DNA of 56,612 nucleotides from an uncultured Nocardioidaceae bacterium (GCA_902805855.1 CADCUJ010000112.1:1-56612), one strand, 5' to 3'; shown: positions 18,781 through 36,079, numbered from the stretch's first letter. Made by a program: numbers and translations. The notes: generated by a model not told the origin, from the letters alone.

Positions 18781-18945
18781 AGTTGTCTTCCCCGATACGT
18801 CGCGAACTCCCGGAGCTCGTGCCTCGACCCTACGCCGCGGGAGGTGCTCCCAGGTAGCCGGCTGGGCGAAAATCAAACGGCTCGCGTCGGATCAGACATG
18901 GGCTGACCGCCAAGGAGGCCCCGTGCCTCACACCCGCCCCGTCAG

Positions 18946-20349
18946 TCACACCTGGGCCCTCTCGGCCAGCGCGAGGAGGGCCTGGGTGAAGCACTCCATC
19001 GGCGGCGTGACCAGTCCGGCGCCGACCTGCCCGGTCCCGGCAACCCTCCCGGCCATGCCGGTGTTGATCTGGGGAAGCACCTGGGTTCGGGCGACGGCGG
19101 TGACGTCTATTCCGGTGGGCGCCCCACGGAAGTCCAGGATCGGGATCGCATACGCCGGGTTCTCGCCGACGGTGATGTCGTACATCCGTTGCGTCGTGGC
19201 CAGCGCGTCCGGGACGCTGCCGCCCACGAACCGCACGATGGCCGGCGCGGTGGCCATCGCGAGGCCACCGATGCCCGCGGTCTCGGTGATCGCGGAGTCG
19301 CCGATGTCGGGGTTGGCATCCTCCGGCCCGAAGTCGCCCAGGAACAGTCCTCTTGGGGTGTGGGCCGGCGCGATGAACCAGCGGTCGCCGGTCCCGGACA
19401 CCTGGATCCCGAAGTCGGTTCCGTTGCGGGCCATGACGCTGACCACGGTGCAGCCGGGGATGTCCGCCGCGGCGGCTGTCTGCAGCTTGCAGGCCGGCAT
19501 CCCGAGGTTCAGGAAGAAGTGGTCGTTGCTGCCGATGAAACGGGTTGCTTCGGCGACGTCGCGGCTTGGTGCGCCCGAGTCGATCAGGGCCGGTGCGACC
19601 TCGCGCAGGAACAGCAGTGTTCCGGCGCGGTTGCGATTGTGGCCCTCGTCGCCCATCTGCACCATCTGCGCGAGGATCGCCTTGACGTCGATCGGGTCGC
19701 CGGCTCGGACGGCGCGCTGCAGCAGCGGACCGAGGACGTCGCCCATCCAGCGCAGGCGCTCGATCACCTCCGGCGCGTAGGCGCCGTATCGAAGGACCTT
19801 GCCGAGCCCCTCGTTCAGCGAGCACCAAGAGCTGGACTCGTGTGCGTCGTCACGCAGCTCGAACAGCCACATCGACGAAGAGACGACACCGGCCATCGGT
19901 CCCACCCCGCCGTGGTGGTGGCACGGCTCCAGGCTCACCCCGTCGCCGGCCTCGAGCCTGCGCTCCGCGGCTTCGGGCGAGTCGGCGAGCCCCTCGAACA
20001 GCATCGCGCCGATGAGTGCGCCGCGCATCGGACCGGAGGCGCGTTCCCAGGTGAGCGGCGGTCCCGCGTGCAGGAACTGGCCGGGTGCCAGGTCCAACAC
20101 TTGCGAGGCCGGCCTTACGTCGACCAGGGTGGCCTCGGCGGACAGCATGGCCTCGAGCGCCCGCGCGTTCGCGGCCCGGCGTCTCGGGTCGAGCGAGACG
20201 GCAGCCAGGGCGTCGTCCGCACCGGCCACCGGCGGTCGCCAGTCGACCCTGGCCGTCGGAACGCCCTGCTGGTCCAAGGCGTCGGCCAGCAGTCCGGCAC
20301 CCGCGGTCACCACGCCGGCGGGCGCCACGAGGGGATGCAGCGTGCTCAT
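18946..20349 (-). CDS. DUF1116 protein, AllG/YlbE-like (oxamic transcarbamylase-type subunit)
   Basis: This 467-residue protein belongs to DUF1116 (E. coli YlbE, now AllG), one of three subunits of oxamic transcarbamylase with AllF (FdrA) and AllH. Notable conserved segments are LEPCHHHGGVGPMAGVVS and GDEGHNRNRAGT. In E. coli the complex phosphorolyses oxalurate to oxamate and carbamoyl phosphate. Here all three genes are present as a leftward operon. The ATG at 20349 overlaps the FdrA stop by four bases. The neighbouring rightward operon holds carbamate kinase and a barbiturase-like enzyme, so the carbamoyl donor may be ureidomalonate rather than oxalurate; that is inference. Confidence 0.85.
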   Translation of the reverse strand: MSTLHPLVAPAGVVTAGAGLLADALDQQGVPTARVDWRPPVAGADDALAAVSLDPRRRAANARALEAMLSAEATLVDVRPASQVLDLAPGQFLHAGPPLTWERASGPMRGALIGAMLFEGLADSPEAAERRLEAGDGVSLEPCHHHGGVGPMAGVVSSSMWLFELRDDAHESSSWCSLNEGLGKVLRYGAYAPEVIERLRWMGDVLGPLLQRAVRAGDPIDVKAILAQMVQMGDEGHNRNRAGTLLFLREVAPALIDSGAPSRDVAEATRFIGSNDHFFLNLGMPACKLQTAAAADIPGCTVVSVMARNGTDFGIQVSGTGDRWFIAPAHTPRGLFLGDFGPEDANPDIGDSAITETAGIGGLAMATAPAIVRFVGGSVPDALATTQRMYDITVGENPAYAIPILDFRGAPTGIDVTAVARTQVLPQINTGMAGRVAGTGQVGAGLVTPPMECFTQALLALAERAQV

Positions 20350-21788
20350 GGCCCGCCACCCGCCACGAGCAGATCCAACGCCGTGCGGGTGGCCTGGGCA
20401 TTGGAGCCGAAGACCCATGCCCCGGCCTGATGCAGCACCTCCGCCTGGCGACCGCGGTCCTGCGGATCGTCCCGGGTGCCCACCAGGGAGACCAGGACCG
20501 GGACCCCGACCGTGGTCGCTGCGCGCACCGCGTCGGAGAGCTCAGCAGCCGGCTCCAGGGTTGCGCCGTGTCCGAGGACCAGGTCGAGCAGCAGCACGCC
20601 ACAGCGCTCGTCCTTGATCTCGGCGAGCATCGCGTCGACCCGGATCGAGCCGTCGATCATCGGGTGCGGGCGGCCCTGGGTGAGCTCGTCGTCCCCGAAG
20701 TCGAGCAGCAGGTGGCCGGCGGCGCCGAGGTCATCGGTGCCGAGCCGGTGCTTGGCCAAGATCATCGCCTCGTCGCGCAGAGTCCCGCCGGCGAACAGCC
20801 CGCGCAGTCGACCGCCGGGTCGGCCTTCGGCCACCGCACCCTGCCGGCGTTCTGGTGGCTGCCACTGCAGTCCGAGAGCGGTCACCACCTGGTGCGCTGT
20901 CTCGGTGATGTCGGGTCGGCCTTCCCCGAGCAGCCCGAGGACCACCGGCTTGCCCAGCCGGTCGGCATGGTCTTGGACCCGCTGCGCCACGCCGGGTGCC
21001 GGAGGCTTGGACACCACCACGACGAGCTCGGTCGCCTCGTCGGCCGCGAGCAGGTCCAGGGCAGCCACGGTGGACAGCGCGCCGACCTGCTCGCTGAGGT
21101 CGCGCCCGCCGACCCCGACGCAGTGGCTGACCCCGACGCCGCTTCCGTCGAGCAGAGTCATCAGGTGCTGGGCGCCTGTGCCCGAGGCGGCGACGATCCC
21201 CACGGGTCCTGGGCGGACGACGTTGGCGAACCCGAGACCGACGCCACCGATCACCGCGGTGCCGCAGTCCGGGCCCATCACGATCACACCGTCGGCGTCC
21301 CGGGAGGCGGCGTACCGCTTCAGCGCGACTTCGTGCTCCAGGGACACGTTGTCGCTGAAGATCATCGTGTGCAGCCCGGCGTCGATCGCGTCGACGGCGT
21401 CCGCGACCGCGTACCGGCCCGGAGTCGAGATCAGCGCCACCTGGGCGTCAGCGGAGCGAGCCGCTGAGCGGATGGTCAACGGCGCCGGGGCGCCCCCGAA
21501 CTCGGAGACGGCGGGGGCCGTGACGGCCGCGACGACTCGATCCACCTCCGCCAGTGCCGAAGTCAGCGCCTCCTCGGACTCTGCGGCTACCGCGACCAGC
21601 ATCTCGTTCGGGCTGACCTGAGCCGGCGGGGTGAAGCCCATGGTCGTGGCCAGGTCGAGGTTCAGCTCGGTAGCCATCGCGACCAGAGCGGAGTGGACAC
21701 CTGGCAGCGCGGCCACCGACCGGCTGGCCTGCATCAGCGTGACCGAGTCGACGTAGGCGCCCTTGCGGACCTGTAGCGACCGGCTCAC
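20346..21788 (-). CDS. fdrA: FdrA/AllF-like carbamoyltransferase subunit (succinyl-CoA ligase fold)
   Basis: The 480-residue protein matches FdrA, a homolog of succinyl-CoA synthetase alpha. A Rossmann CoA-ligase-like part is seen with GPDCGT at residues 172-177 and ASGTGAQ near residue 201. A second ligase-like domain follows (GLFAGGTLRDEAMILAK, DFGDDELTQGRPHPMID). E. coli FdrA is the AllF subunit of oxamic transcarbamylase. The family does not make succinyl-CoA; no CoA synthetase beta subunit is nearby. The GTG start overlaps the DUF2877 stop (GTGA) and its end overlaps the DUF1116 gene, so the three are co-translated. Confidence 0.9.
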   Translation of the reverse strand: MSRSLQVRKGAYVDSVTLMQASRSVAALPGVHSALVAMATELNLDLATTMGFTPPAQVSPNEMLVAVAAESEEALTSALAEVDRVVAAVTAPAVSEFGGAPAPLTIRSAARSADAQVALISTPGRYAVADAVDAIDAGLHTMIFSDNVSLEHEVALKRYAASRDADGVIVMGPDCGTAVIGGVGLGFANVVRPGPVGIVAASGTGAQHLMTLLDGSGVGVSHCVGVGGRDLSEQVGALSTVAALDLLAADEATELVVVVSKPPAPGVAQRVQDHADRLGKPVVLGLLGEGRPDITETAHQVVTALGLQWQPPERRQGAVAEGRPGGRLRGLFAGGTLRDEAMILAKHRLGTDDLGAAGHLLLDFGDDELTQGRPHPMIDGSIRVDAMLAEIKDERCGVLLLDLVLGHGATLEPAAELSDAVRAATTVGVPVLVSLVGTRDDPQDRGRQAEVLHQAGAWVFGSNAQATRTALDLLVAGGGP

Positions 21789-22513
21789 GCCGCCGCCTCA
21801 ACCGTGCTCGTGGTCAGGACGTGCAGCACGCCAGACACCAGCCCCGCGCCGGAGGTGTGCCCGACGGCGAGCAGAGCCGACCTCGTCCGGTCGAGCATGT
21901 CCGCATCCGGAGGAGACGCGCACACCGCGCCGACGAACTGTGCGAGCGGGTCGGTGGCGTACCCGTCCAACGCACACAGCAGCATCGCCCGGGACACCGC
22001 GGTCGTCCGCCCCCGGCCGAGCTCGCGACGCACCGCCCGCTGCCATCCGGGCAGCCGCGGGTCCGCGATGGCATGCGCTGCCACCAGCGCGCCGGCGAGG
22101 ACGTCATCGCCGACCGGGGTGAGGCCGGGCCCGGCGCCGACCAGTGCCTCGGGGTCGAGGGGACCGGCGGTCTCGACGGGGCGGACCGGCGGAGGAGCCA
22201 GTCCACGAGGACGTGCGGGCCGCCACCAGCGGGCGACCCGCCAGCACGCCGCCGAGTCGCTCAGACGCCCATCCCTCACCGTCACCGACCCGCTGGGCAG
22301 CTTCTTGGTCACGACCGCGTTCGGCAGCCGCACCGCCTCCGGGGTGCACACACTGAGCACCGGCATGCCAGGGTCGCCGGTCTCGTAGTGGACGCTGACC
22401 CGGGTCCGGGACACCTCGACGGGCTCGACACCCGGCTCGCCCGGCTCGTCGGCCCGGTCGAGGAGACCTGTCAGCAGCGACGAGGCGCTGCAAGGCAGCT
22501 CACGCGTGGGCAC
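21785..22513 (-). CDS. DUF2877 protein, AllH/YlbF-like
   Basis: The 242-residue product contains the DUF2877 signature GAGPGLTPVGDD at residues 126-137. E. coli YlbF (AllH) is the third subunit of oxamic transcarbamylase. I chose GTG 22513, giving VPTRELPCSASSLLTGLL, because homologs start close to the SxLL motif; a TATCGT hexamer six bases upstream suggests a leaderless mRNA. An in-frame GTG at 22633 would run through the inverted repeats in the intergenic region and is less likely. It is the first gene of the leftward operon and diverges from the permease. Confidence 0.8.
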   Translation of the reverse strand: MPTRELPCSASSLLTGLLDRADEPGEPGVEPVEVSRTRVSVHYETGDPGMPVLSVCTPEAVRLPNAVVTKKLPSGSVTVRDGRLSDSAACWRVARWWRPARPRGLAPPPVRPVETAGPLDPEALVGAGPGLTPVGDDVLAGALVAAHAIADPRLPGWQRAVRRELGRGRTTAVSRAMLLCALDGYATDPLAQFVGAVCASPPDADMLDRTRSALLAVGHTSGAGLVSGVLHVLTTSTVEAAA

Positions 22514-22578
22514 GTACCGACGATAGGCCAGGTCGACCGGCCCGCAGACGAGGTCGCCACCTGACGCCCACGCTGGAC

Positions 22579-22663
22579 GGTGTGGCGACACCCCGCCGCG
22601 TCGGTGCTGGGCACCGACGCCGTGCTGGTGCACAGTGAGAGCCTGATCCGTCCGCGGGGACGG
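22579..22663. promoter_or_regulatory. Inverted repeats between the two divergent catabolic operons
   Basis: The divergent intergenic region (22514-22686) holds three perfect inverted repeats: GGTGT/ACACC with a four-base loop at 22579-22592, GCGTCGGTGC/GCACCGACGC with a three-base loop at 22598-22620, and CCGTCC/GGACGG with a four-base loop at 22648-22663. The last ends about ten bases before the permease ribosome binding site. They could be operators for a regulator encoded elsewhere, or leader hairpins. No promoter is obvious. Confidence 0.5.
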
Positions 22664-22686
22664 TACGTGTGGGGCAGGAGGTCGCC

Positions 22687-24201
22687 ATGTCGATGTTCTC
22701 GTGGAAGGTCGTGCACGACGGGAAGACGCCGCCGCCGGGTGCCGCGGTGGCGCCGGACGAACGGCTCTCGTGGGGGAGGACCGCAGGCCTCGGCGCCCAG
22801 CACGTGGTGGCGATGTTCGGGGCGACGTTCGTCTTCCCGATCATCATGGGTCTCAACCCGCAGCTGGCGATCATGATGAGCGGCATCGCCACAATCGCCT
22901 TCCTGCTCATCGTGCAGGGCAAGGTGCCCAGCTACCTCGGCACCAGCGCCTCGTTCGTGGGTGGAGCGTTCGCGATCTACGGACAAGGCGGTGACGCCGC
23001 GGACGTCACCGGAGCCGTGCTGGTCGCCGGGGTCGTGCTCGCCGCGGTCGGCGTGCTGATCCACTTCCTCGGCTCCGGCGTGCTGCACGCGGTTCTTCCG
23101 CCGGTGGTCACCGGCGCGGTGGTGATGCTGATCGGGTTCAACCTGGCGCCGGTGGTGGCCAACGTCTACTGGCCGCAGGACCAGTGGATCGCGCTGATCA
23201 CGATGACCGCGGTGATCTTGATGGCTGTGGGCCTGCGCGGCTTCTTCGGCCGGATCGCGGTCTTCCTCGGGCTGATCCTCGGCTACGCACTGTCCTGGCT
23301 GTTCGACCGCGTCGGCCCGATCACCTCCGTGCTGCCCGGGCAGAACCTTCGCGGGCCCGACGGCCAGCCCTGCGACACCGAGGGCACCTACTGCGTGGCC
23401 ACCGCGTTCGAGCACGACCGGGTCAGCTGGGACGCCGTCCGCGCGGCCGACTGGATCGGCTTTCCTCCCGCCAGCGACTTTGCCAACGGCGTCGTGGGCT
23501 ACCACGCTCCGACGTTCAGCCTGGCTTTCGTGCTGCTGATGCTGCCGGCCGTGATCGCTCTCGTCGCCGAGAACACCGGCCACGTCAAGGCGGTCGCGGA
23601 GATGACCCGGCACGACCTCGACCCGGTGATGGGCAGGGCGATCGGGGCCGACGGCGTCGGCACCGTGATCGCATCCTCGGTGGGCGGCTCGCCGACCACG
23701 ACCTACGCCGAGAACATCGGGGTGATGGCGGCGACGCGGGTGTACTCGACCGCGGCCTACTACGTGGCGGCCGTGGTGGCGATCCTGTTCGGCCTGTGCC
23801 CGAAGTTCGGCGCCGTGGTCTCGGCGACACCGGGAGGGGTGCTCGGCGGTATCACCGTCGTCCTCTACGGGATGATCGGCCTGCTGGGCGCGAAGATCTG
23901 GAAGGAGAACCGGGTGGACTTCGCCAACCCGGTGAACCTGGTCCCGGTCGCCGCGGGCATCATCATCGCGATCGGCAACACCTCGCTACAGGTCACCGAC
24001 GACTTCGAGCTGTCCGGGATCGCGCTGGGAACCATCGTCGCCCTGGCCGCCTACCACCTCTCCCGCGCCGTGGCTCCGCCAGACCTGCGCGACGAGGGAA
24101 CGTTGATCGCGGTCGGCCGCGAAGGAGTGCACCACGACGACGCGGACCATCGCGACAACGCCGGACGACGAGGCGACTCGGAGCGGCCAACGACTTCGTG
24201 A
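22687..24201 (+). CDS. NCS2 family nucleobase permease (uracil/xanthine type)
   Basis: The 504-residue protein is a nucleobase:cation symporter of the NCS2 family with about 14 hydrophobic segments. The family's central motifs are present: AENTGHVKAV with the substrate-binding glutamate, and GGSPTTTYAENIGVMAATRVYS. The last is closer to UraA-type (uracil) transporters than to uric acid ones, but substrate cannot be fixed by eye. ATG 22687 follows CAGGAGG. As first gene of the ten-gene rightward operon it implies that a pyrimidine or purine is imported. The stop overlaps the GTG of the next gene. Confidence 0.92.
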   Translation: MSMFSWKVVHDGKTPPPGAAVAPDERLSWGRTAGLGAQHVVAMFGATFVFPIIMGLNPQLAIMMSGIATIAFLLIVQGKVPSYLGTSASFVGGAFAIYGQGGDAADVTGAVLVAGVVLAAVGVLIHFLGSGVLHAVLPPVVTGAVVMLIGFNLAPVVANVYWPQDQWIALITMTAVILMAVGLRGFFGRIAVFLGLILGYALSWLFDRVGPITSVLPGQNLRGPDGQPCDTEGTYCVATAFEHDRVSWDAVRAADWIGFPPASDFANGVVGYHAPTFSLAFVLLMLPAVIALVAENTGHVKAVAEMTRHDLDPVMGRAIGADGVGTVIASSVGGSPTTTYAENIGVMAATRVYSTAAYYVAAVVAILFGLCPKFGAVVSATPGGVLGGITVVLYGMIGLLGAKIWKENRVDFANPVNLVPVAAGIIIAIGNTSLQVTDDFELSGIALGTIVALAAYHLSRAVAPPDLRDEGTLIAVGREGVHHDDADHRDNAGRRGDSERPTTS

Positions 24202-25061
24202 AGCCCTCCCCGTTCACCTACCACCGCCCGCACAGCGCCGACGAGGCCGTCGAGCTGCTGCGCGCCTACGGCGACTCCGCGAAGGTGCTTGCCGGAGGAC
24301 AGTCACTGGTGCCGCTGATGTCGATGCGGCTCGCCGCACCGGAGCACCTCGTCGACATCAACCGGGTCGAGGCGCTGCAGTCGGTGGAGGTCGGCGAGGA
24401 CGAGGTGCGGGTCGGCGCCGCGGTGCGGCACTCGCGGCTCGAGCGCGACGAGGAGGTGTACGGCGCGGTCCCGCTGCTGCGCCAAGGCCTGGTCAACGTC
24501 GCCCATCCCGCCATCCGGAACCGGGGGACCACGGTCGGCAGCCTGGTGCACGCCGACCCGGCGGCGGAGATGGCCGCTGTGCTCCTCCTGCTCGACGGCG
24601 TGGTCGAGCTGCGGTCGGCCACAGACTCCCGGGAGGTCGCGGCGGCGGACTTCTTCCTCGGCCCCATGCAGTCCGCGACCGGACCCGGGGAGCTGGCAGT
24701 GGCCGCCCGGTTCGGCCGGCCGCCTCCCGGAAGCGGGTCGGCCTTCGTGGAGCTGTCCCGCAGGCAGGGTGACTACGCGATGTGTGGCGTCGGCGCGCTG
24801 GTCACCACCGGGCAGGAGTCCGAGATCACCTCGGCCAAGGTGGCCCTGGTCGGTGTCGGCGACGGCCCGGCGCTGGTCGACGTGACCTCGGCCGCGGCGG
24901 GGCCGGGCGGTGCGTTCCGCGAGCCGCAGCTGGCGGAGCTGCTCGCGTCGCAGATCGCCCCGGAGAGCGACATCCACGCCAGCGCCGAGTACCGTCGCCA
25001 TCTTGCGCTGGTGCTGACCCGCCGAGCGCTGGGTCAGGCGCACGAGCGGGCGGCGGCATGA
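24198..25061 (+). CDS. Molybdenum hydroxylase FAD-binding subunit (CoxM-like)
   Basis: The 287-residue protein is the medium, FAD-binding subunit of a xanthine dehydrogenase/CO dehydrogenase family enzyme. The two FAD-binding loops are AGGQSLVPLMSMRLA near residue 34 and NRGTTVGSLVHADPAAE near residue 110, and RQGDYAMCGVGA is also typical. It passes electrons from the iron-sulfur subunit to an acceptor. GTG 24198 overlaps the permease stop and the stop overlaps the next ATG. Confidence 0.93.
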   Translation: MKPSPFTYHRPHSADEAVELLRAYGDSAKVLAGGQSLVPLMSMRLAAPEHLVDINRVEALQSVEVGEDEVRVGAAVRHSRLERDEEVYGAVPLLRQGLVNVAHPAIRNRGTTVGSLVHADPAAEMAAVLLLLDGVVELRSATDSREVAAADFFLGPMQSATGPGELAVAARFGRPPPGSGSAFVELSRRQGDYAMCGVGALVTTGQESEITSAKVALVGVGDGPALVDVTSAAAGPGGAFREPQLAELLASQIAPESDIHASAEYRRHLALVLTRRALGQAHERAAA

Positions 25062-25600
25062 ACACCGGCAGCACGAACACCGAGCAGACCGTCGCGGTCT
25101 CGGTGACCGTCAACGGCACGCCCTACGTCGTCGACGTACCTCCTCGACGCCTGCTCTCCGATGCGCTGCGGCACGACCTCGGGCTGACCGGCACCCACGT
25201 CGGCTGCGAGCACGGCGTGTGCGGCGCCTGCACGGTGCTGGTCGACGGCGCCCCGATCAGGTCCTGCCTGGTCTTCGCGGTCAGCCTGGACGGGACACAG
25301 ATCACCACCGTCGAGGGGTGTTGTGCCGACGACGGCGAGATGGGACCGGTGCAGCAGGCTTTCCAGGACTGCCACGCCCTCCAGTGCGGCTTCTGCACGC
25401 CGGGTTTCATCACCTTGATCACCGGTTACCTCGAGGACAACCCGGCGCCGACGCCAGCGGAGGCGAGCGAGGCGATCGCGGGCAACCTGTGTCGATGCAC
25501 CGGCTACCAGAACATCGTCGCCGCCGTGCAGCGGGCCGCTGAGCTGCGGCGTCCGGTGGTGGAGGAGCGTGCCTCTCGAAGCCCCGGCGAGGACCGATGA
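25058..25600 (+). CDS. Molybdenum hydroxylase [2Fe-2S] subunit (CoxS-like)
   Basis: The 180-residue small subunit carries two [2Fe-2S] clusters. The plant-ferredoxin-type cluster uses Cys50, Cys55, Cys58 and Cys70 (GCEHGVCGACTVLVDG). The second uses Cys110, Cys113, Cys145 and Cys147 (CGFCTPG and CRCTGY). All eight ligands are intact, so the electron relay should work. The ATG overlaps the FAD subunit stop and its stop overlaps the large subunit ATG. Confidence 0.96.
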   Translation: MNTGSTNTEQTVAVSVTVNGTPYVVDVPPRRLLSDALRHDLGLTGTHVGCEHGVCGACTVLVDGAPIRSCLVFAVSLDGTQITTVEGCCADDGEMGPVQQAFQDCHALQCGFCTPGFITLITGYLEDNPAPTPAEASEAIAGNLCRCTGYQNIVAAVQRAAELRRPVVEERASRSPGEDR

Positions 25601-28005
25601 GCACCCGGCTGTTCGGGCAGCGGGTGCCTCGGTCGGAGGACCCGCGGCTGGTCACCGGCAACGGCCGTTACCTCGACGACCTGGGCCACGACGCGCTCGC
25701 GGCAGCCTTCGTCCGCAGCCCGCACGCGCACGCCCGGATCGGTGACGTGGACGTCTCCGACGCGGTCGACGTCGAGGGACTGGTGGCGGTCTACACCTAC
25801 GAGGACCTGGTGAGCGACCAGGCCGAGCACGGCTCCCGGATGGCCGAGGCGCTGCCGTTGCTGATCCCGCACCCGACGTTGACGCACGGACGCACGCCGT
25901 ACCCCCTCGCGAACGGGGAGGTCAACCACGTGGGCGAGGCGGTCGTGATGGTGGTCGCGGTCGACCGGTACGTCGCCGAGGACGCCGCTGGGCGGATCCA
26001 CGTCGACTTCGAGCCGCTGCCTGCCGTCGTGGGCATCGAACGCGCGCGCGACGGCGGGCGACTCGTGCACGAGGACGTGCCCGGCAACGTTGCCGCGGTC
26101 ATGGTCCAGCAGACCGGGGACGCCGACGCTGCCGTCGACGCGGCGCCGCACTCCCTGGAGCTGGAGCTGGAGATCGAGCGCAGCGCCTCGATGCCGATGG
26201 AGGGCAAAGGGGTGCTGGCCAGGTGGGACGCCGACGACCAGTCGCTGCTGGTGCACACCTCCACGCAGACCTCGACCAGCGTGCGGCAGGCGGTCGCGGC
26301 CAAGCTCGCCCTGCCGGTCGACCGGGTCGAGGTGGTGACCCCCGACGTCGGGGGCGGCTTCGGGGTCAAGATCATGCACCCGTGGCCGGAGGAGGTGCTG
26401 GTCCCCTGGGCGGCCCGCCGGCTCGGGCGGGCGGTGAAGTGGACCGAGGACCGTCGCGAGCACTTCGTCTCCAGCGCGCACGAGAGAGGGCAGCTGCATC
26501 GGGTGCGCGTCGGGTACGACGACGAGGGCCGGCTGCTGGGGCTGTCGGTGCGCTTCTGGCACGACCACGGCGCCTACATCCCCTACGGGCTCATCGTGCC
26601 GATCATCACCTCGACCCAGCTGCTCGGGCCGTACAAGCCGGGTGTCTACCGGGTGGAGTTCACCAGCCTCTACACCAACACCGTGATCGTCACCCCCTAC
26701 CGCGGTGCCGGGCGTCCGCAGGGCTGCTTCGTGATGGAGCGGGTGATGGACGCCATCGCCGCCGAGCGCGGGATCGACCGAACCGTGGTCCGCGAGCGGA
26801 ACTTCATCCGTCCCGAGGAGATGCCCTACGACCACCACCTGGTCTTCCAGGACGGCCGGGCGCTCCGCTACGACTCGGGGGACTTCCCGGCGTCCCTGGA
26901 GAAGCTGCGCAAGCTCGTCGGCTGGGACGACTTCGCGGCGTTCCGCGAGCAGGCCCGGGCTGAGGGCCGGCTCGTCGGCATCGGCCTGGCGTGCTACGTC
27001 GAGGGCACCGGAGTCGGACCCTACGAGGGTGGCCACGTGCGGGTCGAGAGCGATGGCACCGTGGTGGTCTCGACGGGTCTGACCAGCCAGGGCCAGGGCC
27101 ACCAGACGATGCTGGCCCAGATCGTGGCCGACGAGCTCGGCGTGCCCTTCGACCGAGTGCGGGTCACCACCGGAGACACCAGACGCTTCAAGTACGCCGT
27201 GGGTACCTTCGCCTCCAGGACCGCGGTGATGAGCGGGAGCGCGGTCGCGATGACCGCCCGCCGGGTGCGGGAGAAGGCGATGCGGATCGCAGCGGACGCG
27301 CTGGAGGCATCGCCGGAGGATCTCGAGATCGTCGACGGCCAGGTGCGGGTCAAGGGCACCTCGCCCAGTGGCGCGAACGTGAGCATCGACCTCGGGACCG
27401 TCGCCGTGCTGTCCAACCCGCTGCGGTACGCCTTCGACGACGCCGCGAGGAGGGCGACCCAGTTCGCGTCGCCGGCAGACCCCGCCCGGGCGCCGATCTC
27501 GCCTGGCGACGCGCCGGGGCTGGAGGGCACCGAGTACTACTCGCCGACCCAGTCCACCTTCGCCAACGGCATGCACGCGGTGGTCGTGGAGACCGACCCG
27601 GACACGTGTGAGATCAAGATCCTGCGCTACTGCGTGGTGCACGACTGCGGCACGATCGTCAACCCGATGATCCTCGAGGGCCAGATCCACGGCGGCGTCG
27701 CCCAGGGGGTCGGCGGTGCGTTGTACGAGCGGATGGAGTACGCCGATGACGGCCAGCTCTTGAACGCCTCCTTCATGGACTTCCTGATGCCGTACTCGAC
27801 CGAGGTGCCGACCGTGGAGATCGACCACCTGGAGACCCCCTCGCCGCTGAACCCACTCGGGGTGAAGGGAGCCGGTGAAGCCGGCGTGATACCGGGCTCG
27901 GCCGCGATCGCCTCGGCCATCGAGGATGCGGAGGGTTTCCCGATCCGGCGGATGCCGATCTCGCCCAGCGAGCTGTTCCACCTGAGGCAGGAGCACCAGT
28001 CATGA
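25597..28005 (+). CDS. Molybdenum hydroxylase catalytic subunit (CoxL-like, not form I CO dehydrogenase)
   Basis: The 802-residue subunit binds the Mo-cytosine-dinucleotide type cofactor and hydroxylates the substrate. Visible motifs are GGGFGVKIMHPWPEE (Mo-cofactor loop), PYRGAGRPQ at residues 367-375, and GVKGAGEAGV with the catalytic base Glu761. True form I CO dehydrogenases have AYRCSFR at the active-site loop, so this is not one; form II and other hydroxylases have xYRGAGR. With the permease and ring-opening enzyme in the same operon I infer hydroxylation of a pyrimidine, for example uracil to barbiturate. Substrate is not provable from sequence. Confidence 0.92.
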   Translation: MSTRLFGQRVPRSEDPRLVTGNGRYLDDLGHDALAAAFVRSPHAHARIGDVDVSDAVDVEGLVAVYTYEDLVSDQAEHGSRMAEALPLLIPHPTLTHGRTPYPLANGEVNHVGEAVVMVVAVDRYVAEDAAGRIHVDFEPLPAVVGIERARDGGRLVHEDVPGNVAAVMVQQTGDADAAVDAAPHSLELELEIERSASMPMEGKGVLARWDADDQSLLVHTSTQTSTSVRQAVAAKLALPVDRVEVVTPDVGGGFGVKIMHPWPEEVLVPWAARRLGRAVKWTEDRREHFVSSAHERGQLHRVRVGYDDEGRLLGLSVRFWHDHGAYIPYGLIVPIITSTQLLGPYKPGVYRVEFTSLYTNTVIVTPYRGAGRPQGCFVMERVMDAIAAERGIDRTVVRERNFIRPEEMPYDHHLVFQDGRALRYDSGDFPASLEKLRKLVGWDDFAAFREQARAEGRLVGIGLACYVEGTGVGPYEGGHVRVESDGTVVVSTGLTSQGQGHQTMLAQIVADELGVPFDRVRVTTGDTRRFKYAVGTFASRTAVMSGSAVAMTARRVREKAMRIAADALEASPEDLEIVDGQVRVKGTSPSGANVSIDLGTVAVLSNPLRYAFDDAARRATQFASPADPARAPISPGDAPGLEGTEYYSPTQSTFANGMHAVVVETDPDTCEIKILRYCVVHDCGTIVNPMILEGQIHGGVAQGVGGALYERMEYADDGQLLNASFMDFLMPYSTEVPTVEIDHLETPSPLNPLGVKGAGEAGVIPGSAAIASAIEDAEGFPIRRMPISPSELFHLRQEHQS

Positions 28006-28634
28006 AGATCTCCGGCACCGCCCAGCTCAGCTCCGACCGTGAGTCGGTGTGGCGCGCGCTGAACGACCCGGAGGTCCTGGTGCGCTGCATCCCGGGCTGC
28101 CAACGCCTGGAGGCGGTCGGCGCGGACGCGTTCAAGATGACGCTGAACGCCGGGGTCGGCTCCATCCGTGGCGTGTACGACGGCCAGGTCAGCCTGCACG
28201 ACCAGCAGGAACCGGGGTCGTTCCGGATGCAGGCCCGAGGCACCGGGGCTCCGGGCACGATCGGCGCCGACGTGCTGGTGAGGCTGGAGCCCGGGGACGA
28301 CGGCGGCACGTCGTTGTCCTACGAGGCAGACGCCACCGTCGGAGGGATGATCGGCGGCGTCGGCCAACGGATGTTGACCGGTGTCTCGAAGCGGATGGCG
28401 GCCGACTTCTTCGGCAACGTGGACACCGCGCTCGCCGGGACGCCCGAACCGGCCAGCACCGCTGCGTCCCCCTCGGACCGGGCGCCGGGCTCGCCGGCGG
28501 CTCCGGTGTTCACCGCACCGCAGTCGGTCCCGACGGGCGGGTCGTCGTTCGCGCTCGGCGTCGCCGTGGGCGCGGCTGCCGGGTTGGCGGGCGCCGTCGT
28601 CGGGGCCTGGATCGCGGGACGGCGGAGCGGCTGA
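28002..28634 (+). CDS. CoxG-like SRPBCC protein with C-terminal membrane anchor
   Basis: The 210-residue protein starts with an SRPBCC domain of the CoxG family (SGTAQLSSDRESVWRALNDPE, then CIPGC). The last 30 residues are a hydrophobic helix followed by RRSG, after a proline/serine linker. CoxG of Oligotropha recruits the Mo hydroxylase to the membrane, and the anchor here suggests the same job, linking oxidation to the respiratory chain. The ATG overlaps the large subunit stop. Confidence 0.9.
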   Translation: MKISGTAQLSSDRESVWRALNDPEVLVRCIPGCQRLEAVGADAFKMTLNAGVGSIRGVYDGQVSLHDQQEPGSFRMQARGTGAPGTIGADVLVRLEPGDDGGTSLSYEADATVGGMIGGVGQRMLTGVSKRMAADFFGNVDTALAGTPEPASTAASPSDRAPGSPAAPVFTAPQSVPTGGSSFALGVAVGAAAGLAGAVVGAWIAGRRSG

Positions 28635-30062
28635 GTGCACGACATCGACCGGCACAGCTCTGCCAGAGACATGGTGGCAGCGGTCGCCGCCAAGGCGATC
28701 TCCGCGCGCGAGCTGCTGGAGCTGCACCTCGCCCGGATCGCAGCGGTCAACCCGGCCGTGAACGCGGTCGTGTCGCTGGATCCGGAGCGCGCCCGCGAAG
28801 CTGCCGCGGCCGCCGACGAGGTGACTGCGGCGGGGGAGCGGCTCGGTCCACTGCACGGGCTGCCCTTCGCGTTCAAGGACACCCACGAGGTGGCCGGCTG
28901 GCCGACCACGTTCGGGTCGCCGCTGATGGCCGGCCACGTCTCGCAGCGAGACGACCTCGTCGTCGAGCGGATCCGGGCTGCCGGCGTCGTGGTGATCGGC
29001 AAGACCAACGTGCCGGAGTGGGCAGCGGGGTCGCACACGTTCAACCCGGTCTTCGGCACCACGCGCAACCCCTACGACCTCTCCCGCTCCGCCGGCGGGT
29101 CGAGTGGAGGAGCCGCCGCGGCCCTGGCCAGCGGCATGGTGCCCCTGGCCGACGGCAGCGACATGGGTGGCTCGCTGCGCAACCCCGCCTCGTTCTGCAA
29201 CGTCGTGGGCCTGCGTCCGAGCCTCGGGCGGGTGCCGAGCTGGCCAACCCGCAACGCGTGGGAGCCGCTGTCGGTCACCGGACCGATGGCCAGAGGCGTC
29301 GACGACCTGGCCCTGCTGCTCTCGGTCGTCGCCGGGCCGGATGCCCGCTCCCCCCAGGCACTGGAGACGCCCGGCTCCGCCTTCGCGAGAACCACACCCG
29401 CCGACCTGAACGGGCTGAGGGTCGCCTTCTCCGTCGACCTCGGCGGCGCCTTCGAGGTCGAGGACGACGTGGCCGGGGTGCTGAATGCCCAGCGTGAGCT
29501 GCTCAGCGGCACCGGGGCTCGCGTGGGCGAGGCGTACCCGGACCTCCGTGGTGCCGACGGGGCCTTCCGGACGCTGCGGGCGTGGCACTTCGCCCACCGG
29601 TTCGGCGCGCTGCTTCGCAGTGACCCGGACGCCTTCAAGGCCTCACTGGCCGGCAACATCCGCGAGGGCGAGCCGGTGACGGGTGCCGAGGTGGCGCGGG
29701 CGTTCCAGACCCGCACAGAGATCGGTGAGCGGGTCCGTGAGTTCTTCACCCAGCACGACGTGCTGGTGATGCCGGTCAGCCAGGTGCCGCCGTTCAGCGC
29801 GGACGAGGAGTACCCGTCGCTGATCAACGGCCGCGCCCAGCCGACGTACCTGGACTGGATGCGTTCTGCCTACCTGATCACCATGACCGGGTGCCCGGCG
29901 ATATCGGTGCCAGCAGGGTTCACCGGCCAGGGCTGGCCGGTCGGCGTCCAGGTCGTCGCCGCGCCGAACCATGAGCTGCGGCTGCTGCAGTTCGCCCGTG
30001 CCTTCGAGATGGCCAATCCGGCGGGTCGGCGCCGGGCTGTGCTCGGCGAGGAGGCGGCTTGA
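28635..30062 (+). CDS. Amidase signature family hydrolase (candidate ureidomalonase or malonamidase)
   Basis: The 475-residue protein has the complete Ser-cisSer-Lys triad of the amidase signature family: Lys81 in FKDTHEV, a serine in GGSSGG (156/157) and nucleophile Ser180 in GSDMGGSLR. The family includes malonamidase E2, which converts malonamate to malonate and ammonia. Ureidomalonase of the oxidative uracil pathway is an amidohydrolase acting at the same point of the pathway. In this operon it could hydrolyse ureidomalonate directly or malonamate after carbamoyl removal. GatA of the tRNA amidotransferase is unlikely because no gatB/gatC is near. GTG 28635 immediately follows the coxG stop. 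Confidence 0.88.
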   Translation: MHDIDRHSSARDMVAAVAAKAISARELLELHLARIAAVNPAVNAVVSLDPERAREAAAAADEVTAAGERLGPLHGLPFAFKDTHEVAGWPTTFGSPLMAGHVSQRDDLVVERIRAAGVVVIGKTNVPEWAAGSHTFNPVFGTTRNPYDLSRSAGGSSGGAAAALASGMVPLADGSDMGGSLRNPASFCNVVGLRPSLGRVPSWPTRNAWEPLSVTGPMARGVDDLALLLSVVAGPDARSPQALETPGSAFARTTPADLNGLRVAFSVDLGGAFEVEDDVAGVLNAQRELLSGTGARVGEAYPDLRGADGAFRTLRAWHFAHRFGALLRSDPDAFKASLAGNIREGEPVTGAEVARAFQTRTEIGERVREFFTQHDVLVMPVSQVPPFSADEEYPSLINGRAQPTYLDWMRSAYLITMTGCPAISVPAGFTGQGWPVGVQVVAAPNHELRLLQFARAFEMANPAGRRRAVLGEEAA

Positions 30063-32125
30063 GCATCCGGATCGGCATCGACACCGGAGGTACCTTCACC
30101 GACGTGGTCGCGGTCGACGACGAGACCGGCACGGTGGTGACCACCAAGACGCCCTCGACGCCGAACGACCCGGCGATGGGCTTCATGGCCGGCGTGCACA
30201 AGGTGCTCGCCGCACTCGGTCTGGCCGGTGACCAGGTCACCGCGGTGAGCCACGGCACGACGGTGGCGACGAACAAGCTGCTCGAGGGCAAGGTCGACGA
30301 CCTCGGCTTCATCACCACCGAGGGCTACGAGTTCGTGCTGGAGATCGCGCGGCAGTCGGTGCCGGACGGCTACGGGAACTCGTACTTCTGGGTGAAGCCG
30401 GACCGGATCGTGCCCGCGGACCGGGTCCGGACCGTCCCCGGCCGGTTCACGGCTCGAGGCGAGGAGGTCAGAGCCTTCGACGAGGCCGCTGCCGTGGACA
30501 CCGCGCGCTGGTTCCGGGAGCGGGGGATCGACTCGATCGGGGTCTGCTTCCTGCACTCCTATCTCGACAGCAGCCACGAGCGGGCGATGCGCGCGGCCCT
30601 CGAGCGTGAGCACCCGGGCGCCACGGTGTCGATCTCCAGCGACGTGCTGGCTGAGTACCGTGAGTACGAACGCAGCGTCACCACGTTGGTCGACGCCGCG
30701 GTCAAGCCGAGCATCCGCAGCTACGTCGAGAACATCGGCTCGCGGCTCGGCGAGCTGGGAGCTGAGGGTGCCGCACCGATCCCGTTCTACGTGATGAAGT
30801 CGAACGGCGGCGTGCTGTCGGCCGACGAGGTCGTCCATCAGCCGATCACGACGGTGCTGTCCGGGCCGGCCGCGGGAGCGCTGGGTGCTGCGGTGGTGGC
30901 GCAGAGCGCCGGATTCGCGCGCGTGGTCACCTGCGACGGTGGCGGTACCTCGACCGACGTCACCGTGGTGACCGACGGCCGGCCCGCCCTGACCACGGAG
31001 GGCACCGTGGGGGCGTATCCCAGCAAGATCCCGATGATCGACGTGGTGACCGTCGGTGCCGGGGGAGGGTCTGTCAGCTGGATCTCGCCCGAGGGGACGC
31101 TCAAGGTCGGGCCCCGGTCGGCCGGGGCCGACCCGGGACCGATGTGCTACCGGACCGGCGGCACCGAGCCGACCGTCACCGACGCCCATCTCCTGCTCGG
31201 GCGCATCCCACCGCACCTGCTGGGCGGCGAGGTGCCGTTGGACGTCGAGGTCGCGGCGAGCGGCATCGAGCAGCTGGGTGAGTCGCTCGCCCTGACGGGG
31301 GAGGCCTGCGCCAGCGGTGTGCTGGAGATCTCGGCGTGGAACCAGGCCAACGCCCTGCGGCAGGTCACGGTCCGCCGCGGCCTGGACATCCGCGAGTTCA
31401 CCCTGGTGACCTTCGGGGGATCCGGCTCGCTGCTTGCCTGCCGGCTGATCGACATCCTCGGGCTCGACGGGGTGCTCGTGCCGCTCAACCCGGGCAACCT
31501 CTCGGCGTTCGGCCTGCTGACGGTCGACGTCCGCAACGACTACGTGCAGACAGCAGTGACCCGTGCCTCGCAGCTCAACAGCAGCCGGGTGCAGGCGAGG
31601 TTCGAGGACCTCACCGGCCGGGCCGATGCCGCCCTGGAGCGTGCGGGCTTCCCACCGAGCCAGCGCAGCTTCTTGCGTACCGCCGACCTTCGGTACTTCG
31701 GTCAGGCCTACGAGGTGCGGGTGGACGTGCCCGACGGTCCGATGACCGACGAGCTGGCCTCGGCTGTCGGCGACGCGTTCCACGAGGAGCACCGGAGGTT
31801 GTACGGATACGACTTCCGAGACGACCAGCGGCAGGAGGTGGAGTGGGTGAACCTGCGGGTCAGTGGCGTCGGGCCGATCCGCAAGCCAGCGCTCGTCGAA
31901 GTCGCGCGTGGGACCGGCGCGGAGCTGGCGGGGACCGGATCCCGCCGCGTGTACTTCGAGGACTGGGTGGACACGCCCGTCTACGACCGTGCCCTGCTCG
32001 GGGCCGGAGACGAGATCCACGGTCCGGCGGTGCTGGAGGAGTTCAGCTCGACGGTTCCCCTGCACCCGGGCTTCACCGCACGCGTGGACGACTACGGCAA
32101 CCTGGTGATCCGGAGGAGCCCGTGA
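30059..32125 (+). CDS. Hydantoinase/oxoprolinase subunit A (HyuA family)
   Basis: The 688-residue protein belongs to the ATP-dependent hydantoinase/5-oxoprolinase A family. The actin-like ATP-binding fold shows GIDTGGTFTDVV at residues 5-16, SHGTTVATN, and DGGGTSTDV. With subunit B it would open or modify a lactam or cyclic imide at the cost of ATP; relatives also include caprolactamase and acetone or acetophenone carboxylases, so the reaction is open. The TTG start at 30059 overlaps the amidase stop (TTGA) and the stop overlaps the HyuB start. Confidence 0.9.
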   Translation: MSIRIGIDTGGTFTDVVAVDDETGTVVTTKTPSTPNDPAMGFMAGVHKVLAALGLAGDQVTAVSHGTTVATNKLLEGKVDDLGFITTEGYEFVLEIARQSVPDGYGNSYFWVKPDRIVPADRVRTVPGRFTARGEEVRAFDEAAAVDTARWFRERGIDSIGVCFLHSYLDSSHERAMRAALEREHPGATVSISSDVLAEYREYERSVTTLVDAAVKPSIRSYVENIGSRLGELGAEGAAPIPFYVMKSNGGVLSADEVVHQPITTVLSGPAAGALGAAVVAQSAGFARVVTCDGGGTSTDVTVVTDGRPALTTEGTVGAYPSKIPMIDVVTVGAGGGSVSWISPEGTLKVGPRSAGADPGPMCYRTGGTEPTVTDAHLLLGRIPPHLLGGEVPLDVEVAASGIEQLGESLALTGEACASGVLEISAWNQANALRQVTVRRGLDIREFTLVTFGGSGSLLACRLIDILGLDGVLVPLNPGNLSAFGLLTVDVRNDYVQTAVTRASQLNSSRVQARFEDLTGRADAALERAGFPPSQRSFLRTADLRYFGQAYEVRVDVPDGPMTDELASAVGDAFHEEHRRLYGYDFRDDQRQEVEWVNLRVSGVGPIRKPALVEVARGTGAELAGTGSRRVYFEDWVDTPVYDRALLGAGDEIHGPAVLEEFSSTVPLHPGFTARVDDYGNLVIRRSP

Positions 32126-33987
32126 CCGACAGCTCTGCGGTCTTGACCGAGATCGTCGATGGCTACCTCGCGTCGGTCGAGCAGGAGGTGGAGACGGCGA
32201 TCGGGCGCACGTCGAGGTCACCGATGATCCGCGACGCGCACGACTACCGCGCCGGCATCCACGACCGCAGGCTGCGCAAGCTCACCGGCCGGTCCTACTC
32301 GGCGCTGGTGCACCCGGTCGTGCGGGACTACCCCATCGAGACCATGCAGCCCGGTGACGTGTTCTTCCACAACGACGTGTACCTGTCCGAAGGGGGCATC
32401 GGCCACCTGCCGGACCTATGCGTGACCGCGCCGGTCTTCCACGATGACGGAGGCGGCCCGCAGGTGGTCGCGTTCGTCCAGGCCTTCGGGCACCACGACG
32501 ACATCGGCGGCGCCGTGCCGGGGTCGATGCCGAGCAACGCGACCAGCGTGTACGAGGAGGGCCTGATGGTGCCCCCGATCCGGCTCTGGCAGGCGGGCGT
32601 CCCGAACGAGGCGGCACTGAAGATCATGACCCGCAACTCCCGGATGCCCGACTCGCTCGCGGCCGACCTCGACGCCGAGTGCTCGGCGTGCCTGATGGGG
32701 GCTCGCCGGCTGGCCGAGCTGTTCGAGAGGTACGGCCGCGAACGGGTGGAGACGTGCTTCGACGCGCTACTCGAGAAGACCACCGCCACCTTCCGACGCG
32801 AGGTGCTGTCGAAGATTCCCGAGGGCTCCTACACCTGGGAGGACTACGCCGAGCACGACGGCGTCGACGAGCCGCGGCTGCACACCCAGCGGATCACCTT
32901 GACGAAGACCGCGCACTCCGACCCGGGTGGCGAGCGGCTGGTCCTGGACTTCGACGGCACCGCGCCCCAGGCGAAGGGGCCGATCAACCACTGCGGGGAC
33001 TACGCCGACGGGAACTTCTTGAAGAAGTGGCTGGCTCCGGTGCTGCGCAACCTCGCCGACACCCCCGAGCGGATGGCCCAGCTCGACGTGAACGAAGGCG
33101 TGGTCCCGCTGATCGAGATGCGCTTCCCACCACCCGGCACGCTGCTGACCCCGGTGTTCCCGGCGCCCACGAACGCGCGAACCTTCGTGATCCTGCGACT
33201 GCTCGGCGTGCTGGCCGGGGTGGTCGCCAAGGCGGTCGACGGGAGGATGCCTGCGGACCAGGAGACGATCCGCTACACCGGGGTGTACGGCGATGACCTC
33301 GACGGGACGCCGTACCTGATGCGTGAGGTCCTCGGCGGCGGATCCGGCGGCCGCTACTACGCCGACGGCGAGGACACGATCCACGTCGTCCCGGACTCTC
33401 GCAACCTGCCCACCGAGTTCTCCGAGGCGCGCTTCCCGTTCCTGGTCGAGCGGCTCGGCCTGGCCGTCGACAGCGGCGGGCCGGGCCGCTTCCGCGGCGG
33501 TCTCGGCTACGAGAAGCACATCCGGATGCTTCGGGACGCGCACTTCATGTCGATCGCGGACCGCTCGATCCTGTCCTGCTGGGGGGTTCGAGGCGGCAGG
33601 GCCGGCAAGTCGTTCTCGGTGACCATCGACCCCGGAGGGTCGGCCGAACGCGAGGTCGACGCGCTCGCGGACGCCGAGCCGGTGCGCGCCGGCGAGCTGA
33701 TCCGGATCCGCACCACCGGAGGTGGTGGCTGGGGTGACCCGCTGGAACGGCCCTACGACGAGGTGGTCCGGGACGTGCTCTGGGGCAAGGTGTCGGTCCA
33801 GGCCGCCCGCGAGGAGTACGGCGTCGTCCTGGGCGGTCTCGCCGACGCCCCCCTTCTGGACGCCCGGGCCAGCGACTCGTTGCGCGCGCGGATGCGCTCT
33901 GGTCGCGGGGAGGTCCCGTTCTTCGACCGCGGACCGGGCTATGCGAGGCTCTCCGGCGGGGCAGCCACCGCAGCGGTGGACTGGTGA
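32122..33987 (+). CDS. Hydantoinase/oxoprolinase subunit B (HyuB family)
   Basis: The 621-residue partner of HyuA shows the family's metal-site region: RSPMIRDAHDYRAGI, then GDVFFHNDVYLSEGGIGHLPD, and AFGHHDDIGGAVPGSMP. Later blocks include DFDGTAPQAKGPIN and GRFRGGLGYE. It would carry the substrate site of an ATP-dependent amide-hydrolysing or carboxylating complex. Which ring or amide is attacked is unknown; barbiturate opening is already covered by the amidohydrolase downstream. GTG 32122 overlaps the hyuA stop by four bases. Confidence 0.9.
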   Translation: MTDSSAVLTEIVDGYLASVEQEVETAIGRTSRSPMIRDAHDYRAGIHDRRLRKLTGRSYSALVHPVVRDYPIETMQPGDVFFHNDVYLSEGGIGHLPDLCVTAPVFHDDGGGPQVVAFVQAFGHHDDIGGAVPGSMPSNATSVYEEGLMVPPIRLWQAGVPNEAALKIMTRNSRMPDSLAADLDAECSACLMGARRLAELFERYGRERVETCFDALLEKTTATFRREVLSKIPEGSYTWEDYAEHDGVDEPRLHTQRITLTKTAHSDPGGERLVLDFDGTAPQAKGPINHCGDYADGNFLKKWLAPVLRNLADTPERMAQLDVNEGVVPLIEMRFPPPGTLLTPVFPAPTNARTFVILRLLGVLAGVVAKAVDGRMPADQETIRYTGVYGDDLDGTPYLMREVLGGGSGGRYYADGEDTIHVVPDSRNLPTEFSEARFPFLVERLGLAVDSGGPGRFRGGLGYEKHIRMLRDAHFMSIADRSILSCWGVRGGRAGKSFSVTIDPGGSAEREVDALADAEPVRAGELIRIRTTGGGGWGDPLERPYDEVVRDVLWGKVSVQAAREEYGVVLGGLADAPLLDARASDSLRARMRSGRGEVPFFDRGPGYARLSGGAATAAVDW

Positions 33988-34013: not shown

Positions 34014-34955
34014 ATGAGAGTGCTGCTGGCCCTGGGAGGCAACGCACTGGCCGCCGACGACGGACGGGTCCGACCGCAGGACCAGATAGCGGCTGCTCAG
34101 GCCGCCATGAAGTGCGTCGCAGACCTGCTCACCCGCGACATCGAGGTCGTGCTGACCCACGGCAACGGGCCACAGGTCGGGAACCTCCTGGTGAAGAACG
34201 AGATCGCGGCCTCCGTGGTGCCCCCGGTCCCGCTGGACTGGTGCGGCGCCTCGACCCAGGCCACGCTCGGTTTCGTGCTCATGCAGGCGCTCGACGACGC
34301 ACTTGCCGGGGGCGACCCGCAGGCCCGTAGCGCGACGATCGTCACGCGCACCCTGGTCGACCCCGACGACCCCGGCTTCGGCAAGCCGAGCAAGCCGATC
34401 GGGAGGTACCTGCCGAAGGAGGAGGCAGCGCTGCTGGTCGAGCACGGGGAGACGTGGCAGGACCGCGGCGCCAGGGGCTGGCGCCGCGTCGTGCCCTCGC
34501 CGCAACCGCTGGAGATCCTCGACGCACCGGCGGTCACCGCGCTCGTCGAGGCCGGCTTCGTCGTTGTCGCCAACGGCGGCGGAGGCATCCCGGTGGTGCG
34601 AGAGGCGGGTGGCCTGCGGGGCGTCGAAGCCGTGATCGACAAGGACCTCGGGGCGGCACTGCTGGCCAGGACGGTCGCTGCCGACGTACTGGTGATCGCC
34701 ACCGACGTGCCGGCGGCCGTCCTCGGCTTCGGCACGCCTGGCCAGAAGGCGATCGGCCGGATCGCCGTGAGCGCGATGCGCAAGTACGCCGACGAAGGTC
34801 ACTTCGGCAGCGGCTCGATGAGTCCCAAGGTCGAGGCTGCCTGCCGCTTCGTGGAGGCCGGAGGAAGGTACGCCGTGATCAGCGACCTCGACGGCATCAT
34901 CGACGCTGTGGCCGGGAAGACGGGCACTGTCGTGGTACCGGACGAGGAGAGCTGA
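34014..34955 (+). CDS. Carbamate kinase
   Basis: The 313-residue enzyme makes ATP from carbamoyl phosphate and ADP, releasing carbamate. [16 protein letters not shown] opens the protein, [11 protein letters not shown] binds the nucleotide, and [10 protein letters not shown] and [12 protein letters not shown] are also typical of ArcC. ATG 34014 follows GGGAGG by seven bases; a GTG at 33984 overlapping HyuB is possible but adds residues outside the family. No arginine deiminase or ornithine transcarbamylase for the ADI pathway is in this operon, so the carbamoyl phosphate must come from another reaction, plausibly the FdrA/DUF1116/DUF2877 complex. Confidence 0.93.
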
Positions 34956-36079
34956 TGCCAGAGCCGATCGAAGTACGCAAGGTCCCCATCCTCAGTGTCT
35001 CCGACGCGAGCGGTCTGGCCGGCCTGATCGATCAGGGCGTGCTCGAGGCGGATCGAGTCGTCGCGGTGATCGGGAAGACCGAGGGCAACGGCGGGGTCAA
35101 CGACTACACCCGCATCATCGCCGACCGCGCCTTCCGCGAAGTGCTCGTCGCGAAGGGCAGCCGCAGCGCGGAGGAGGTCAACCAGGTGCCGATCGTCTGG
35201 TCGGGGGGCACCGATGGTGTGCTCAGCCCGCACGCGACGGTGTTCGCGACGATCCCGGCCGACCAGGCCGAGCAGACCGACGAGCCGAGACTGACCGTGG
35301 GTTTCGCGATGAGCGAGATGCTGCAGCCCGAGGACATCGGCAGGACTGCGATGGTGACGAAGGTCGCGGAAGCGGTGGAGGTCGCGATGGGGCGCGCCGG
35401 GATCTCCGACCCCGCGGACGTGCACTACGTGCAGACCAAGACCCCGCTGCTGACGATCCACAGCATCCGGGACGCGAAGAGCCGCGGGAAGACCGTGTGG
35501 ACCGAGCACACGCACGAGTCGATGGACCTGTCCAACGGGTGCACCGCGCTCGGGGTCGCGGTCGCGCTGGGGGAGATCGACATGCCGCGCGACGAGGACG
35601 TCATGCACGACCGCTCGCTCTACTCGAGCGTCGCCTCGTGCTCCAGCGGCGTGGAGCTGGACCAGGCACAGGTGGTCGTGGTGGGCAACACGCGCGGTGT
35701 GGGCGGGCGGTACCGGATCGGCCACTCGGTGATGCGCGACGCCCTGGACGCGGACGGGATCTGGGCAGCGGTCAAGGACTCCGGTCTCGAGCTGCCGGAG
35801 CGGCCGCACGTCTCCGATCTCGATGGCCGCCTGGTCAACGTCTTCCTCAAGTGCGAGGCGTCCCAGGACGGTGAGGTCCGTGGCCGCCGCAACGCCATGC
35901 TCGACGACTCCGACGTGCACTGGCACCGGCAGATCAAGGCATGCGTGGGCGGGGTCACCGCCGCGGTGACCGGTGACCCGGCTGTGTTCGTGTCGGTCTC
36001 CGCGGCGCACCAGGGACCGGACGGCGGCGGCCCGGTGGCTGCGATCGCCGACCTCGGGCCAGGCGACGCGAAAACCTGA
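34955..36079 (+). CDS. Ring-opening amidohydrolase, barbiturase/cyanuric acid hydrolase family
   Basis: The 374-residue protein is a member of the small family containing barbiturase and cyanuric acid hydrolase. The three-fold repeat and its Ser-Lys pairs are visible: Lys41 ([15 protein letters not shown]) with Ser83 (VWSGGTDGV), Lys162 (QTKTPLL) with Ser231 (SCSSGVE), and Lys299 (FLKCEAS) with a serine at 347-349 ([15 protein letters not shown]). Family members hydrolyse six-membered cyclic imides. Neighbouring Mo-hydroxylase and NCS2 genes favour barbiturate over cyanuric acid, but eye inspection cannot exclude the latter. The ATG overlaps the carbamate kinase stop by one base. It ends the operon. 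Confidence 0.92.

Follow-up and report, generated by a model that had tools for sequence, protein, structure and literature searches.

The gene trio at positions 18946–22513 on the minus strand of the window, which is the whole 56,612-nt stretch of DNA from an uncultured Nocardioidaceae bacterium analysed in this study, probably encodes an AllFGH-type carbamoyltransferase that acts as a ureidomalonate phosphorylase in the oxidative breakdown of pyrimidines. The trio sits with the genes of the barbituric acid route of uracil breakdown in most of the barbiturase-carrying actinobacteria examined. The initial annotation had suggested that the trio phosphorolyses ureidomalonate rather than oxalurate, and this suggestion is supported, at the level of sequence and gene neighbourhood, by the co-occurrence of AllG with barbiturase, the existence of compact operons, the loss of AllG in rhodococci, the missing source of oxalurate, and the clade to which AllG belongs. 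The chemistry that it put forward was also right in substance, with the carboxylate of ureidomalonate being separated from the amide carbonyl by the extra CH2.

The AllFGH trio and its facing operon

The presence of the trio was borne out by profile matches to all three members on the minus strand. AllG (DUF1116, YlbE-like; 18946..20349), a proposed subunit of the ureidomalonate phosphorylase, matched PF06545 with 312 bits and AllH (DUF2877, YlbF-like; 21785..22513) matched PF11392 with 78 bits, both over the cut-off, and AllF (FdrA), a succinyl-CoA-ligase-like subunit (20346..21788), matched NF004760 with 374 bits, below the cut-off of 433. The genes for AllH, AllF, and AllG are neighbours that overlap end to start by 4 bp each, and 22513 was preferable as the start of AllH, for which the longest open reading frame runs from 22633. 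Just past AllG, the protein encoded at 17125–18876 showed a weak match to a lytic transglycosylase model (NCBIfam MltB_2, 31 bits) and also contains long proline-rich charged repeats.

A short gap (22514..22668), which probably holds divergent promoters, separates the trio from a facing operon on the plus strand. The first gene of this operon encodes an NCS2 nucleobase permease (22669..24201; PF00860, the best NCBIfam match being RutG with 338 bits, below the cut-off), for which an alternative ATG at 22687 is preceded by AGGAGG. It is followed by the genes for a CoxM-type FAD subunit of a molybdenum hydroxylase (24198..25061; NF041019, 204 bits, below the cut-off), a CoxS-type iron-sulfur subunit (25058..25600; NF041020, 201 bits, below the cut-off), and a CoxL-type molybdenum subunit (25597..28005; NF040766, 1491 bits with a cut-off of 950), which are proposed to form a dehydrogenase with uracil as the presumed substrate, and then by that for a CoxG-type accessory protein (28002..28634; PF06240). 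An amidase-signature hydrolase (28635..30062; PF01425, 356 bits; NF005686, 470 bits with a cut-off of 465) is proposed to be a malonamate amidase, with ureidomalonase as the rival role. A HyuA-like subunit (30059..32125; caprolactamase alpha model, 502 bits with a cut-off of 1000) and a HyuB-like subunit (32122..33987; PF02538, 447 bits) are also encoded within this operon (30059–33987), and one guess for their role concerns thymine-derived 5-methylbarbiturate. The carbamate kinase gene (34014..34955; TIGR00746, 340 bits with a cut-off of 358; NF009007, 317 bits with a cut-off of 266), the reading frame of which is open from 33984, has the barbiturase gene (34955..36079) directly downstream. 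The carbamate kinase and the amidase that had been placed in the facing operon were, hence, both confirmed by model matches. The amidase has a conserved Arg following its catalytic Ser, which was considered as a marker of malonamidase and dropped; such an Arg is generally found in amidase-signature enzymes, and malonamidase E2 ranked low among the solved-structure matches.

The barbiturase of the window scored 698 bits against barbiturase (PDB 5hwe) and 331 bits against the best cyanuric acid hydrolase. All three Ser-Lys dyads are retained, and Asn194 occupies the position of the Arg of cyanuric acid hydrolase; glutamine has been reported for barbiturase at the position of Arg188 in PMC4051656, with which the asparagine here is aligned. 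Its predicted function of opening the barbiturate ring to ureidomalonate is, thus, strongly supported by its score and active-site residues.

In the proposed pathway, uracil would be imported by the permease and oxidised to barbiturate by the CoxMSL-type hydroxylase, and barbiturase would open the ring to give ureidomalonate. AllFGH would then split ureidomalonate with phosphate to malonamate and carbamoyl phosphate, the latter of which would be converted by carbamate kinase to ATP, CO2, and ammonia, and malonamate would be hydrolysed to malonate and ammonia by the amidase or, elsewhere, by a CN-hydrolase of the same slot. No urea would arise, and ATP would be gained. Because the equilibria of carbamoyltransferases lie toward carbamoylation (PMC4016543), the proposed direction would depend on the pull exerted by carbamate kinase.

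Co-occurrence and neighbourhoods of AllG and barbiturase

A set of 396 evenly drawn Actinomycetota genomes was searched for AllG and the barbiturase/AtzD family. As a result, AllG was found in 49 genomes and the barbiturase/AtzD family in 27; 22 genomes have both. AllG is present in all 22 genomes that have a barbiturase-clade enzyme, and the two genes lie on the same contig in 17 of the 22 that have both. With relatedness ignored, Fisher's test for the association gave 4e-18 when the whole family was counted and 7e-23 when only the barbiturase clade was. The five family members from genomes lacking AllG were divergent, all departing from the barbiturase clade at at least one compared residue, and three of them (those in the stretches examined) were 37–43% identical to the window enzyme. 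AllG was also present in many genomes lacking barbiturase, indicating that the AllG family is not specific to barbiturase.

A scan with a barbiturase alignment yielded 80 named loci, in 73 of which carbamate kinase adjoins barbiturase. Outside the class, the linkage was reduced to barbiturase-NCS2-ArcC-AllH-AllF-AllG on one strand, as represented by L062 (L065 and L066 being similar), where the compact cluster is faced by a gene matching PmfR/AdeR-type regulator models and where the amidase and HyuAB were absent from the 11 kb examined. Such compact operons, in which AllFGH is the sole candidate for the ureidomalonate step, support the assignment of this step to AllFGH as a putative phosphorylase. 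Among 14 out-of-class stretches with barbiturase and AllF/AllG, carbamate kinase was found in 12, the amidase in 3, and a HyuA match in 1. These counts bear on the possibility that the substrate of the trio comes from HyuAB and not from barbiturase, which would accord with the shared operon and with the CoxMSL-HyuAB-AllF-AllG clusters of three related genomes (L084, L085, and L086); no match to the barbiturase family was obtained in these genomes, as though ring opening there fell to HyuAB. However, HyuAB are very unlikely to be the source of the substrate, because most of the out-of-class clusters had no HyuA match.

Other genes near barbiturase are consistent with the later steps proposed for the ureidomalonate route. 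The slot between CoxG and HyuA held an amidase-signature enzyme in 12 loci, an unrelated CN-hydrolase in 6, and nothing recognised in 6, and its filling by unrelated hydrolases agrees with a repeated requirement for amide hydrolysis. A class III CoA-transferase, with the succinate-glutarate CoA-transferase model as its best match, was present in 50 of the 80 loci, and 16 loci had a fused carboxyltransferase; given their presumed substrates, both fit malonate as the product. In a genome lacking AllG, CoxL lies by a divergent ring-opening enzyme, an amidase, and a malonyl-CoA synthase-like acyl-CoA synthetase (L096:7028-13574), a set that is possibly a hydrolytic variant.

Genomes lacking AllG and the supply of oxalurate

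Among the 49 named barbiturase genomes that were searchable for AllG, 45 had it. Neither AllG nor AllH was found by genome searches in the other four, namely Rhodococcus sp. IEGM 1409, R. erythropolis NBRC 15567, Rhodococcoides fascians, and Catenulispora rubra. Urease was present in all four, compared with 8 of the 45 genomes with AllG (Fisher's test, 0.002, with relatedness ignored and three of the four being close relatives). In the three rhodococci, an amidase is directly downstream of barbiturase and ArcC was not found beside barbiturase; in Catenulispora, ArcC adjoins barbiturase despite the lack of AllG and AllH. The work on the barbiturase/ureidomalonase pathway was reportedly done on R. 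erythropolis. The window differs from the Rhodococcus-type arrangement, in which an amidase is beside barbiturase in a genome lacking AllG, in that AllG is present and its amidase is in the slot between CoxG and HyuA.

The pathway described in PMC3758960, which cites Soong 2001 and 2002, proceeds from barbiturase to ureidomalonase, which produces malonate and urea. The operon amidase might, therefore, be the ureidomalonase, with the trio acting on another ureide, as the window amidase narrowly passes NF005686, the same subfamily model that the R. erythropolis amidase next to barbiturase matches with 713 bits. However, this assignment is unlikely in view of the lack of urease in the source genome and of the amidase in compact barbiturase-AllFGH clusters such as L062. 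In addition, the rhodococcal amidase lies beside barbiturase where AllG is absent, whereas the window-type amidase occurs in AllG-bearing genomes, and carbamate kinase beside barbiturase would be left without a role if the amidase were the ureidomalonase.

It is also conceivable that oxalurate is the substrate and that the trio works as a normal oxamic transcarbamylase, given that E. coli AllFGH converts oxamate and carbamoyl phosphate to oxalurate (PMC11326118) and that the window AllG and AllF are 47% identical and 37% identical (over 500 columns), respectively, to the E. coli proteins. In a profile search of the source genome (97.9% complete), however, neither the Ldh_2/AllD family nor urease alpha was found, and no allantoinase was over the cut-off (best, 227 bits with a cut-off of 358). 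The absence of allantoinase and urease that had been pointed out for the window, thus, extends genome-wide at these cut-offs, and none of the allantoin genes that would supply oxalurate (AllD and allantoinase) scored over the cut-off. Among the 22 genomes with AllG and barbiturase, the AllD family was missing from 16 and urease from 17, with allantoinase over the cut-off in 14, the source genome not being one of them.

The descent of AllG also argues against oxalurate. In a tree of 74 AllG sequences, with a few long branches flagged by the program, all 52 barbiturase-linked ones, including that of the window, fell on one side of a branch with an SH-aLRT of 95, and the E. coli AllG clustered with those of L081 and L082, the latter of which has AllFGH adjoining a true AllD. 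Because many of the barbiturase-linked sequences were picked for their barbiturase, the even draw described above is the unbiased part of this evidence. As oxalurate-producing genes were not found and the window AllG is in another clade, oxalurate is very unlikely to be the substrate. A ten-position signature of AllG that distinguishes the oxalurate type from other types was kept as a lead only, being post hoc and derived from three sequences of one clade; PDB 3clq, in our reading of the alignment, has neither residue at two of these positions.

Relation to known systems and a possible wider family

The proposed ureidomalonate phosphorylase resembles the E. coli AllFGH/AllK system (PMC11326118) in having the same three subunit families with a co-encoded carbamate kinase and in the type of reaction, in which an N-carbamoyl amide would be split with phosphate. 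It differs in that the window trio is beside barbiturase, not beside allantoin genes, in that its AllG is in a separate clade and its genome lacks AllD, and in that its proposed substrate is one CH2 longer. Compared with the oxidative pyrimidine pathway as presented in PMC3758960, barbiturase, ureidomalonate, and malonate as the carbon product are shared, whereas the ureidomalonase step is apparently replaced here by AllFGH and carbamate kinase, with ATP and ammonia being produced instead of urea. The ureidoglycine carbamoyltransferase of Rubrobacter xylanophilus, encoded next to a carbamate kinase gene, likewise splits a ureide with phosphate to give carbamoyl phosphate, but it is an ATCase-like single-gene enzyme acting on allantoate, called pseudo-ATCase, with no AllFGH trio (PMC4016543). 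In the open literature searched, we found no paper joining DUF1116 with barbiturase, ureidomalonate, or ureidomalonase, and the single paper found to mention cyanuric acid together with carbamate kinase interprets its allFGHK genes as serving oxalurate degradation. If the proposed role is true, the oxidative pyrimidine pathway would be rewritten as urea-free and ATP-yielding for most of the barbiturase-carrying actinobacteria examined, and the urea-releasing ureidomalonase branch would be confined to lineages such as Rhodococcus. The DUF1116/DUF2877/FdrA genes would also gain a second substrate, with a third being suggested in cyanuric acid breakdown.

This third substrate concerns plasmids of Klebsiella and Aminobacter (L178 and L180; NZ_CP084773.1 and NZ_CP062120.1), in which fdrA and the DUF1116 gene adjoin those for a ring-opening amidohydrolase and carbamate kinase, together with atzF in the former and a DUF2877 gene in the latter. 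The Klebsiella ring-opening enzyme aligned with the TrzD-type PDB 5t13 over its full length with zero differences in the alignment shown, and the Aminobacter copy shares its protein accession. Furthermore, an IS26-flanked AtzD-NCS2-AllH-AllF-AllG-ArcC cassette (L181:8710-17639) was found in Enterobacterales plasmids, with at least 80% of it being present in 47 plasmid records, mostly from Citrobacter, Klebsiella, and Enterobacter and some from showers. The AllG of the TrzD plasmids and that of the cassette are in different places in the tree. It is possible that 1-carboxybiuret, which is ureidomalonate with NH for CH2, would be split to carbamoyl phosphate and allophanate. The presence of AllFGH and carbamate kinase beside cyanuric acid hydrolases suggests a wider phosphorylase family for N-carbamoyl amides (X-CO-NH-CO-NH2 + Pi to X-CO-NH2 + carbamoyl phosphate) with oxalurate, ureidomalonate, and 1-carboxybiuret branches, to which we give an even chance. 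If this is true, plasmid-borne cyanuric acid breakdown in Enterobacterales and Aminobacter would be ATP-yielding, with allophanate as a co-product. In comammox contigs without trtB, allFGHK have been reported beside triuret and biuret genes and read as serving oxalurate degradation (PMC12625717). A further plasmid, pAPEC-O2-ColV (L182; NC_007675.1), carries DUF1116, arcC, cytosine permease, and LysR genes, and its AllG is matched in 96 Escherichia plasmid records.
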